Of a stretch of DNA of 64,000 bases, positions 41,974 through 45,421 are shown in pieces; position 1 is the first letter of the stretch, and each line of letters begins with the position of its first letter. The notes below the pieces were generated by a model. The model searched no databases and had not been told where the DNA came from. It worked only from the letters and a program-made list of their open reading frames with translations. Source of the DNA: Maricaulis maris (GTDB lineage Bacteria > Pseudomonadota > Alphaproteobacteria > Caulobacterales > Maricaulaceae); contig NZ_AP027270.1 of assembly GCF_036322705.1 (NCBI RefSeq), forward strand, positions 2,233,501 through 2,297,500, read 5' to 3'. The position numbers and the translations under genes are program-made.

Positions 41974-42042
41974 TACGCTCGCGATTTGCGGCTTTCCGGA
42001 TAGACTGCCCCAAACCGATTCCGTACGGGGAGATGCCGGGGC

Positions 42043-42936
42043 ATGGACTGGGACAAGCTGAAAACCTTTCACGCGGCCGCACAGGCCGGGTCCCTGACCA
42101 AGGCGGCCGACATGCTCGGCCTGTCGCAATCGGCTGTCAGCCGGCAGATTGCCGCGCTTGAGGATGATCTGGGCGTGACGCTGTTTCACCGTCACGCCCG
42201 GGGCCTCATCCCTACGGAACCGGGCAATCTGCTTTACAGCGCCGCCCATGAAATCGCCTCGAAGGTGGCCATCGCCGAAGCGCATGTCCACGACGCGCGC
42301 GATGAACCCTCCGGCGAACTCAAGGTCACGGCGCCGACCGCGCTCGGCGCCATCTGGCTGGCACCACGCCTCGCCGAGTTCCACGACGAATACCCCAATA
42401 TCCGGATCCGGCTGATGCTGGACGATCATGAGCTGGACCTGGCAGGTCTCGAGGCCGAGGTCGGCATCCGGCCCTGGCCATCGACCCAGAATGACCTCGT
42501 CCAGCGCAAGCTCCTGTCGGTGCGCCAGCACCTCTATGCCAGCCACGCCTATATCGAGCGCCACGGCTCGCCCAGCACCCCGGCCGAGCTGGATGATCAT
42601 GCCATCATCTATTACGGCCCGCCGCAGCTGGCACCGATCCCGGGACTGGACTGGGCGGCGAAGGCCGGCCGCGAAGACGGCGCCGCGCCGCGTCCCGCGG
42701 TGATCGAGGTCAATACGATCTATGGCGTGATGAAAGCCGTTGAGGCGGGCATGGGCATCGCAGCCCTGCCGGACTATGTCGCGCGCGAGAACCAGAAGCT
42801 CACGCGGGTCCTGCCCGAGCTCGATGGTCCGGATTTCGAGGTCTACTTCGTCTATCCCAGCGAACTGCGCGGTTCACGCCGCATCGTCGCCTTCCGGGAT
42901 TTCCTCATCGAACAGGCGCGTCGCTGGCAGAGCTAG
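42043..42936 (+). CDS. LysR-type transcriptional regulator
   Basis: The 297-residue product has the LysR winged HTH at the N-terminus (MDWDKLKTFHAAAQAGSLTK, AADMLGLSQSAVSRQIAALE) and a periplasmic-binding-protein-like effector domain (about 90-290). LysR regulators normally control a neighbouring divergent gene, but none is divergent here: the DUF547 gene upstream runs the same way. The targets are therefore uncertain. The effector is unknown. Confidence 0.93.
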   Translation: MDWDKLKTFHAAAQAGSLTKAADMLGLSQSAVSRQIAALEDDLGVTLFHRHARGLIPTEPGNLLYSAAHEIASKVAIAEAHVHDARDEPSGELKVTAPTALGAIWLAPRLAEFHDEYPNIRIRLMLDDHELDLAGLEAEVGIRPWPSTQNDLVQRKLLSVRQHLYASHAYIERHGSPSTPAELDDHAIIYYGPPQLAPIPGLDWAAKAGREDGAAPRPAVIEVNTIYGVMKAVEAGMGIAALPDYVARENQKLTRVLPELDGPDFEVYFVYPSELRGSRRIVAFRDFLIEQARRWQS

Positions 42937-43099
42937 CCACATTTCCGCCATGCACCACGCCGGAAATCAGGGACTTGGACCGGGCAGGATGGGCGTCCGC
43001 GTCCATGCATGGCAACAATGTGGCAACGCGTCCTTTTTGCATATCTGACATGAAGCGATAGCGCTTCCGCCGATCCGGATAATCGCACATATATCCCCC

Positions 43100-43288
43100 C
43101 GACGCGGCGAGTACGCCGCTGCTCAGATCTCCCCATCTGAGTATTGCGCGCCCCTCCTCCCCATTTGGGCGCGCAGCATCGCGCCGGGTCCCTCTCCTCC
43201 CCTTTAGGACCCGGCGCCATATTCTTCGGGCTACCCCGGCCCAACAAACAATGACTGCCCCGGCTCCCCCAAGCCGGGGCATTTTTTG
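43100..43288 (+). ncRNA. candidate small RNA with anti-Shine-Dalgarno stem-loops
   Basis: A chain of perfect hairpins fills the gap between the LysR gene and dps. SL1 is 43104-43119 (6-bp stem, AGTA loop). SL2 is 43122-43141 (7 bp, loop CTCCCC). SL3 is 43145-43175 (9 bp, loop CTCCTCCCCATTT). SL4 is 43181-43217 (11 bp, loop CTCTCCTCCCCTTTA). A terminator hairpin follows at 43256-43281 (10 bp) with six T residues. Loops 2-4 are complementary to Shine-Dalgarno sequences. This recalls the CUCCUCCC-motif sRNAs of Rhodobacter and the cuckoo RNAs of alphaproteobacteria, but with several loops on one RNA. The 5' end and promoter are not resolved. Confidence 0.72.
43256..43287 (+). terminator. Rho-independent terminator of the candidate sRNA
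   Basis: A perfect 10-bp stem TGCCCCGGCT / AGCCGGGGCA with a 6-nt loop is followed by TTTTTT on the plus strand. It cannot serve dps, which is on the other strand and has its own terminator. Confidence 0.88.
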
Positions 43289-43299
43289 TTCCGCGCAAG

Positions 43300-43327
43300 A
43301 AAAAGCCCCGGTGCGAGGCACCGGGGC
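43300..43327 (-). terminator. Rho-independent terminator of dps
   Basis: A 10-bp stem GCCCCGGTGC / GCACCGGGGC with a 3-nt loop ends in TTTT(C) on the minus strand, 27 bp beyond the dps stop. Confidence 0.85.
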
Positions 43328-43353
43328 ATTTCTCGGCGATCCGGGCCGAACAG

Positions 43354-43821
43354 CTAGCCGACCGTGGAGCGCAGCATCCAGGCGGATTTCTCATGCTCGG
43401 TCAGACGCGGCGTCAGGATATCGGCCGTGGCCTCGTCACCATGCTCGGCCGCCAGCGCAAGCGCCTTGCGGATCGTGGCCACCACAGTCTCATGCCCCTT
43501 GAGCAGATCCCGCAGCATGTCATTGGCCTCCGTCGCCTCGCCACCGGACTTGATGGCAGCAGCCTCGGTCATTTCCGCATAGGAGCGCGGTGCCGCGACG
43601 TCGAGTGCGCGGATCCGTTCCGCGATCACGTCGGTTGCCATCCACAATTCATTGTACTGCGTCTCGAACAGGATGTGCAGGTCGTGAAAGCGCGGACCGG
43701 TGATGTTCCAGTGATAGACATGCGTCTTGAAATAGAGCGCATACGTGTCCGCCAGCACAGCGGTCACGGCTTTCGCCATGGCTTCACGTTGCGCGTCGGA
43801 CAGACCCATATTGATGCTCAT
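43354..43821 (-). CDS. dps: Dps family DNA-binding ferritin-like protein
   Basis: Dps forms 12-subunit shells that oxidise and store iron and protect DNA under starvation and oxidative stress. The 155-residue product has the inter-subunit ferroxidase residues in FKTHVYHWNITGPRFHDLHI (His) and FETQYNELWMATDVIAERI (Asp/Glu), and normal length. The N-terminus lacks an obvious Lys-rich tail, so direct DNA binding is uncertain. It has a dedicated terminator and is single-standing; no OxyR or Fur site was confidently identified. Confidence 0.93.
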   Translation of the reverse strand: MSINMGLSDAQREAMAKAVTAVLADTYALYFKTHVYHWNITGPRFHDLHILFETQYNELWMATDVIAERIRALDVAAPRSYAEMTEAAAIKSGGEATEANDMLRDLLKGHETVVATIRKALALAAEHGDEATADILTPRLTEHEKSAWMLRSTVG

Positions 43822-43939
43822 ATCATTCTCCTTATCTGGTTCGCGTGCGGCTCAGCCGCGGCGTCCACCCTCATGTAGGAGGTCCAATCCCATAATTCAA
43901 ATCAGGATTTATTGGGACTGGTATTGATAGACTCTATAG

Positions 43940-45421
<1,482 letters not shown>

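Follow-up and report, generated by a model that had tools for sequence, protein, structure and literature searches.

We found that the gap between a LysR-type regulator gene and a dps-like gene of Maricaulis maris harbours, as judged by comparative sequence analysis, the gene of a conserved RNA (positions 43100 to 43288 of the plus strand of the window, i.e., of the whole 64,000-nucleotide stretch of DNA analysed here). Its predicted structure, the covariation of its base pairs, the conservation of its loops, the orthology of the adjacent regulator, the synteny and an upstream box were observed here; its transcription, its start site, its activation by the LysR, and its pairing with and repression of mRNAs are inferred. 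Taken as a whole, it is probable that we deal with an AbcR-like, LsrB-controlled, trans-acting anti-Shine-Dalgarno (anti-SD) small RNA (sRNA) that lowers translation.

Structure and conservation of the predicted RNA

The predicted transcript (43100..43288, +) has its start placed from a −10 element and would end in the T-run of an intrinsic terminator, or possibly just 3′ of its fourth hairpin. The fold contains four consecutive hairpins. H1 (43104-43109/43114-43119) has 6 bp and the loop AGTA, without a C-rich motif. H2 (43120-43128/43135-43143), lineage-specific according to the fold and the comparison of copies, exposes the loop CTCCCC on a stem of 7 Watson-Crick pairs (43122-43128/43135-43141), or 9 pairs when the outer G-U and A-U are counted. 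The two conserved anti-SD loops are those of H3 (43144-43153/43167-43176; loop CTCCTCCCCATTT), with 10 pairs in the fold, and H4 (43181-43191/43207-43217; 11 bp, loop CTCTCCTCCCCTTTA), which is followed by a T-rich tail in several relatives. The terminator (43256-43265/43272-43281, feature 43256..43288, +) consists of 10 bp followed by TTTTTTG. It is one of four terminator-like sites scanned in 42900-43400, two of which are nested or opposite-strand readings of one stem, against 0.4 in shuffles. Besides H1-H4 and the terminator, a small GGGCTACCCCGGCCC-type hairpin also appears in the fold of 43090-43295. The initial annotation had described four hairpins and a 10-bp plus-strand terminator with six T residues, all of which are present in the letters and in the fold; its loops for H2-H4 agree exactly with the sequence, and the 9 bp it gave for H3 is right as a count of Watson-Crick pairs, to which the fold adds an outermost G-U.

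The fold energy of 43090-43295 amounts to −100.8 kcal/mol, compared with a mean of −63.5 (sd 4.4) for 200 dinucleotide shuffles, none of which was as low (z = −8.41). The CTCC stretches of the loops of H2-H4 each have a mean unpaired probability of 0.98–1.0. Mechanical open frames of 83–153 aa run on both strands through the gap between the LysR gene (end 42936) and dps (end 43354, other strand). We rejected a protein-coding origin of the region, since the lengths of the copies differ by non-multiples of three and the pairs covary, which makes a coding role unlikely.

A DNA search of 61 genomes (the own genome and 60 relatives) detected the locus at E ≤ 5e-6 in 13 genomes, the own genome among them (L005-L017), and the matches listed outside the genus were weak and of short length (E no better than 0.002). 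The locus is also present in Maricaulis maris DSM 4734 (L066). A covariance model, R1, built from eight of the DNA-search matches with the structure taken from the fold, was run on the 137 genomes of the family and matched 26 of them at E ≤ 0.01; among the genomes listed, these were 18 of 19 Maricaulis and eight of one sister genus (g8), the only Maricaulis-genus miss among those listed being a 65% complete genome (G012). When R1 was run on 398 genomes of the order at E ≤ 1e-4, all 22 matches fell in Maricaulis or the same sister genus. This stricter order-wide filter missed the copy of genome G010, found at E ≤ 0.01 in the family search. G010 carries two sRNA copies in tandem between LysR and dps (C187:8263-8635; L055, L061), the second of which is devoid of the H4 motif CCTCCCC.

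The alignment of the copies comprises 28 rows, 27 of them distinct; one row (L051:1570-1676:-) is an antisense artefact, which was included in the pair counts and excluded from the loop counts. In this alignment, whose fitting to the structure of R1 is a bias in favour of that structure, 95.1% of cells are paired and double-sided changes occur in 24 of 32 pairs, including, somewhere in the alignment, 6/6 pairs of H1 and 8/8 pairs of H3. Covariation reached 0.352, whereas shuffles gave 0.126 and slid registers no more than 0.094; none of 500 shuffles attained any of five pair measures, and the slid registers stayed far lower. The H3 motif CTYCTCCCC is kept in all 27 copies and the H4 motif CCTCCCC in 26 of 27, whereas an H2-type hairpin is found in 11 of 27, all within the Maricaulis genus. 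Stems that vary while the loops of H3 and H4 stay are the mark of an RNA acting through its loops. It had been proposed at the outset that conserved stems with compensatory changes and invariant CUCC loops would speak for an sRNA: the stems bear this out and the loops of H3 and H4 are near-invariant, but the H2 loop is not conserved in this way. The covariance search and the conserved stems and loops support the view that this is an sRNA candidate in its own right, equipped with a terminator.

The neighbouring regulator and the putative promoter

The RNA gene is framed by the LysR-type gene (42043..42936, +; 297 aa) and a convergent dps-like gene (43354..43821, −), whose NCBIfam Dps-type matches all lie below the curated cut-offs. 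The latter has a terminator of its own (43327-43305, −; terminator scan), separate from that of the sRNA, and is followed by an aminotransferase gene. In 25 of the 26 genomes with the RNA, LysR is located upstream on the same strand at no more than 1.63 kb (the exception, L060, is a contig end), and dps is found downstream, convergent and within about 1.7 kb, equally in 25 of 26 (the exception, G001, being again a contig end). The dps neighbour pointed out in the initial annotation is therefore a constant one, while the equally constant LysR had been left unexplained. In five genomes (G001, G002, G005, G007, and G009), about 1.6 kb separate LysR from the sRNA, and the GCAT element described below stays with the sRNA in all five.

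In a phmmer search, the regulator matched PDB entry 9HH1, which is LsrB (PMC11975290), with 276 bits over the whole length, the next match reaching 102 bits. It is also the reciprocal best match of a Bradyrhizobium relative (L113), which gives 320 bits to the window LysR and 117 bits to the next protein of the M. maris genome. NCBIfam gave no match to an LsrB model, and all its matches were below cut-off. Of 556 relatives confirmed in a scan of named genomes, the best 80, 50–97% identical, come from Maricaulis, Hyphobacterium, Glycocaulis, Oceanicaulis, Woodsholea, Marinicauda, Hirschia, Henriciella, Robiginitomaculum, Bradyrhizobium, Rhodopseudomonas, Afipia, Azorhizobium, Xanthobacter, and others, and 12 of 24 further order genomes encode a relative at E ≤ 1e-60. 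By these sequence comparisons, the window LysR is an orthologue of LsrB/VtlR. A 2025 paper describes LsrB as apparently unique to Rhizobiales among the species compared there (PMC11975290). The window protein has no cysteines; regulation by LsrB has been linked to two cysteines that become oxidized (PMC8844928), and a redox switch of that kind cannot operate in the same manner here.

In Rhizobiales, LsrB/VtlR is encoded beside the anti-SD sRNA AbcR1 and activates it. The genes abcR1 and abcR2 come after vtlR in Agrobacterium, where the abcR1 promoter is bound by VtlR and GCAT-N3-TG-N3-T was proposed as the box (PMC7486931). In the abcR1 promoter of S. meliloti, PabcR1, this box occupies positions −61 to −49, ahead of CTTGAC-N17-CTATAT (PMC8844928). 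We detected a box of this type, GCAT-ATC-TG-ACA-T (43039..43051, +), at −61 to −49 of the predicted start, i.e., at the same distances. Downstream of it lie a putative −35 element, CTTCCG (43064..43069, +), which is a weak match to CTTGAC, and, 17 bases further, a putative −10 element, ACATAT (43087..43092, +), which resembles CTATAT of PabcR1; this CTTCCG-N17-ACATAT arrangement places the predicted start at 43099-43100. By eye, many copies retain the −35 position as CTTCTG or CTCTGG, and most retain the CATAT of the −10 element. A scan for E. coli-type promoters returned none.

Among the aligned copies, the strict box occurs in 7 of 26 and the strict box or its YG variant in 18 of 26, as compared with 0.12 copies with the strict box when the 26 upstream pieces were letter-shuffled; GCAT itself is present, by eye, in all 26, which are related and thus do not amount to 26 independent tests. 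An extended form of the box, GCATRNCYGACAT, has five matches in the genome versus one in the reversed control. Four of the five are inside open frames longer than 380 codons. The fifth, at 43039, falls between LysR and dps, where the frames overlapping it are mechanical ones that do not exceed 153 aa.

Counterparts in other lineages and relation to known RNA families

We searched for TCCTCC within 400 bases of 92 LysR relatives (80 + 12), each with at least 350 bases of sequence. These 92 loci, collected via LysR, come predominantly from Bradyrhizobium-type genomes and do not count as independent cases. Downstream of the regulator gene, 56 of them had TCCTCC on the plus strand and 3 on the minus strand, as opposed to 0 and 9 upstream. 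For the strict box the corresponding values were 36 (+) and 6 (−) downstream, and 0 and 3 upstream. The presence of LysR at such loci proves nothing by itself, because they were found through it. The distance from the box to TCCTCC is 93–96 bases in Bradyrhizobium-type loci, 96 in Glycocaulis, 91–92 in L151, L152, and L154, and 109–116 in seven Maricaulaceae loci.

Many Bradyrhizobium-type loci display GCATG[AT]CTGACAT and, 93–96 bases further, CCCCCTCCTCC, followed by a terminator in the four that were inspected (L109, L113, L121, and L129). The Xanthobacter locus L143 possesses the box GCATGCCTGACAT and GTTCCCCTC ahead of a terminator, without TCCTCC. In Glycocaulis (L076) and Woodsholea (L084), a single CUCCUCCCC hairpin is followed by a terminator hairpin at the place of H4, and a relaxed box is present in the former and absent from the latter. 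In turn, all six genomes of family f2 (L151-L156) carry TTTCCTCC ahead of a terminator downstream of LysR, five of them with a second TCCTCC upstream of it and three (L151, L152, and L154) with the strict box; by eye, an apparent dps end follows in three (L152, L155, and L156). The segment of Henriciella L128 looks like that of family f2. Within the stretches inspected, no sRNA was visible downstream of LysR in L077-L083, in Robiginitomaculum L099 and L101, and in all but one of the six f4-family loci, so that in those loci the LysR-sRNA pair has been lost, is broken or was never present.

At gathering level, Rfam recognized solely an unrelated tRNA-Sec in 15 LysR loci. At E ≤ 0.5, four sub-threshold matches were obtained in seven such loci; weak matches of this kind to alpha-r8 (suhB/mmgR) lie on the RNA-like segments downstream of LysR in L152 (26.5 bits against a cut-off of 41) and L143. 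We regard as evenly poised the proposal that LsrB/VtlR and an adjacent anti-SD sRNA are an ancient pair predating the split between Rhizobiales and Maricaulis/Henriciella. The rhizobial AbcR RNAs, the Henriciella-type RNA with C-rich motifs, the RNAs with a single loop in Glycocaulis and Woodsholea, and the Maricaulis RNA would then represent lineage forms of one gene, in which hairpin units were gained and the terminator hairpin became a second target-binding hairpin.

At the sRNA locus itself (42000-45000), no Rfam family reached its cut-off. The best one, ar14 (RF02344), aligned end to end over H2-H4 with 33.4 bits (E 8.5e-4; gathering cut-off 58.8). Rfam includes ar15, and neither an ar15-type nor a suhB (alpha-r8) match was obtained in 42000-45000 up to E = 10. 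The second-best ar14 score of the genome (30.6 bits) belongs to a locus outside the window (L002/L158, G000:C1:2111666-2111787, −), a terminator-like hairpin with the loop TCTCTCCCCCTC just 3′ of a gene that, by eye, resembles a chemotaxis receptor gene. The third and fourth ar14-like matches of the own genome (L003, 16.1 bits; L004, 12.8 bits) appeared coding-like by eye and were discarded.

With AbcR1/AbcR2 (alpha-r15), whose expression depends on LsrB/VtlR and which bind Hfq, the RNA shares its place immediately behind the orthologous LysR gene, the GCAT-N3-TG-N3-T box at an equal distance from the (here predicted) start, an exposed anti-SD loop and the occurrence of tandem copies, seen here in G010. 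It differs in giving no alpha-r15 match in Rfam and in having a regulator without cysteine. It also has repeated CUCCUCCCC-loop hairpins, whereas AbcR1 is a three-hairpin RNA with UCCUCCC in its 5′ loop (PMC3712013). The synteny of AbcR1 is reported to be high across alphaproteobacteria (PMC8844928).

NfeR1 (alpha-r14) is built of three hairpins, each with CCUCCUCCC, the three motifs being redundant in target silencing (PMC10746234). A true homology with alpha-r14/NfeR1 or with the cuckoo/CcsR RNAs, placed by chance beside an LsrB-type gene whose product has no special role, is the best of the alternatives and in our view an unlikely one. The three-hairpin layout of NfeR1 with anti-SD loops is identical and ar14 is the top Rfam family, yet its score falls far under 58.8, the alignment rests largely on the common loops, and 9 of the 14 control genomes also give matches to that model at E ≤ 10 (none of them above the cut-off). 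Moreover, the RNA described here has the extra H1 and a separate terminator, adjoins a LysR gene, and contains CCUCCUCCC in H3 only if one base of the closing stem is counted; H4 has UCUCCUCCC and H2 merely CUCCCC, which is not conserved. The box and the C-rich motif also recur behind relatives of LsrB from other orders, which speaks against a chance neighbourhood. As NfeR1 is itself activated by LsrB (PMC10746234), such a homology and the AbcR-like reading are not fully exclusive.

The cuckoo/CcsR RNAs (RS0680a type) and SmelA075/SmelA099 resemble the Maricaulis RNA in their series of hairpins with variable stems, similar anti-SD loops and a variable number of units. The cuckoo/CcsR RNAs are associated with a DUF1127 gene (CIN1 locus). 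Here, the locus is tied to LysR and dps: the upstream gene is LysR, and a CcaF1-type DUF1127 gene, 71 aa in size (PMC10253847), cannot fit into the 163-base gap 42937-43099. SisA-D/MmgR (alpha-r8) are likewise alphaproteobacterial trans-sRNAs with an anti-SD motif, but their single-stranded UUUCCUCCCU core is absent here.

The initial annotation saw the distinguishing trait of the RNA in its three anti-SD loops. This did not hold, as two loops are conserved here and RNAs with three or four are known: besides NfeR1 (PMC10746234), SmelA075 has three and SmelA099 four anti-SD hairpins, and such RNAs have been in print since 2011 (PMC3927594). The number of loops is thus not new. In the literature searched, we found no account of this RNA in Maricaulis or Hyphomonadaceae, an earlier listing within the cuckoo family being possible; the consulted portion of PMC3751524, in which both "Maricaulis" and "sRNA" occur, holds nothing on it. 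Since no Rfam family reaches its cut-off and multi-loop RNAs are known, the RNA is best described as AbcR-like in its place and probable control and as alpha-r14/cuckoo-like in its build. Known RNAs of root-nodule bacteria are its relatives or look-alikes; it is itself undescribed but does not represent a new kind.

Proposed mode of action and meaning

According to the AbcR-like reading, a trans-acting sRNA of about 120–190 nt would be transcribed from its own promoter with a start near 43100, and the LsrB/VtlR orthologue probably activates this promoter via the GCAT-N3-TG-N3-T box. The RNA would display the C-rich loops of H3 and H4, joined by the third loop, H2, in 11 genomes of the Maricaulis genus. 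Each loop may pair with GGGGAGGA-like Shine-Dalgarno stretches and block ribosome binding, which would lower the translation of a set of mRNAs. A block of translation at several mRNAs is expected by analogy with NfeR1 (PMC10746234) and AbcR1 (PMC3712013). Several findings weigh against the AbcR-like reading: the restriction of the strict box to 7 of 26 copies, the poor −35 match, the negative E. coli-type promoter scan, the cysteine-free regulator, the want of an Rfam family above its cut-off, and the LysR relatives with no sRNA visible downstream.

Read from the letters, the loops complement GGGGAGGAG. We found 18 GGGGAGGA-N3-9-ATG sites in the genome and none in the reversed control, although strong SD sites are expected before ATG anyway, so that this control does not show the 18 to be targets; 14 of them start frames of at least 60 codons and 4 only short frames. 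The proteins encoded at the 10 of 18 sites that were scanned include an FGGY kinase, an acyl-CoA dehydrogenase, SecD/SecF, a DUF1761 protein, an SMP-30-like protein, an acyltransferase, a short-chain dehydrogenase, an AMP-binding enzyme, MnhB, and one protein without a family. The predicted duplexes of the loops with three GGGGAGGA sites range from −13.5 to −22.9 kcal/mol (−17.4 to −22.9 for H3 and H4). With the start region of dps they reach −7.4 to −8.9 kcal/mol (−7.5 to −8.9 for H3 and H4), and dps is not favoured as a direct target.

Seven TCTCCTCCCC sites exist in the genome, one of which is this RNA. Three of the other six are in long open frames, two are, by eye, opposite a gene start, and one is a second hairpin locus outside the window (L165, G000:C1:3006775-3006875, +) with C-rich loops of the types ATGATCCCCTCC and CTCCTCCCCCC. 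L165 is located about 100 bases ahead of an open reading frame starting with MQFHDDPDD; loci of its type are also present in two other genomes of the Maricaulis genus (L062 and L063). It could be another sRNA or a leader.

The loops might, instead of ribosome sites on mRNAs, capture a protein or a G-rich partner RNA, the RNA being a sponge or decoy. Two or three repeated loops would fit titration, and anti-SD RNAs do meet partner RNAs, as in Caulobacter, where the sRNA CrfA sponges SisA-D (PMC12559287); given that the redundant loops of NfeR1 act on mRNAs (PMC10746234), we consider this doubtful, and more so than the homology discussed above. Least credible of all is that the RNA is a 3′-end piece processed from the LysR mRNA, or a terminator cluster devoid of trans function: it does begin 163 bases past the LysR stop and end in a terminator, and in several copies a T-rich tail follows H4, but conserved promoter-like elements of its own are kept even at 1.6 kb from LysR, and its loop letters stay while the stems change, unlike those of ordinary terminators.

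LsrB/VtlR and their sRNAs are known from host-associated Rhizobiales, in which nutrient uptake and the interaction with the host are under their control, and Maricaulis is not a host-associated rhizobial type. Maricaulis-type bacteria have an orthologue of the regulator, the box and an anti-SD sRNA arranged in the same way, which suggests that the circuit is older than its use with hosts. The cysteine-free regulator raises the question of which signal it senses, LsrB having been described as a thiol redox sensor (PMC8844928). The one-, two-, and three-loop forms of the RNA constitute a series on which the benefit of repeating anti-SD loops could be tested directly.
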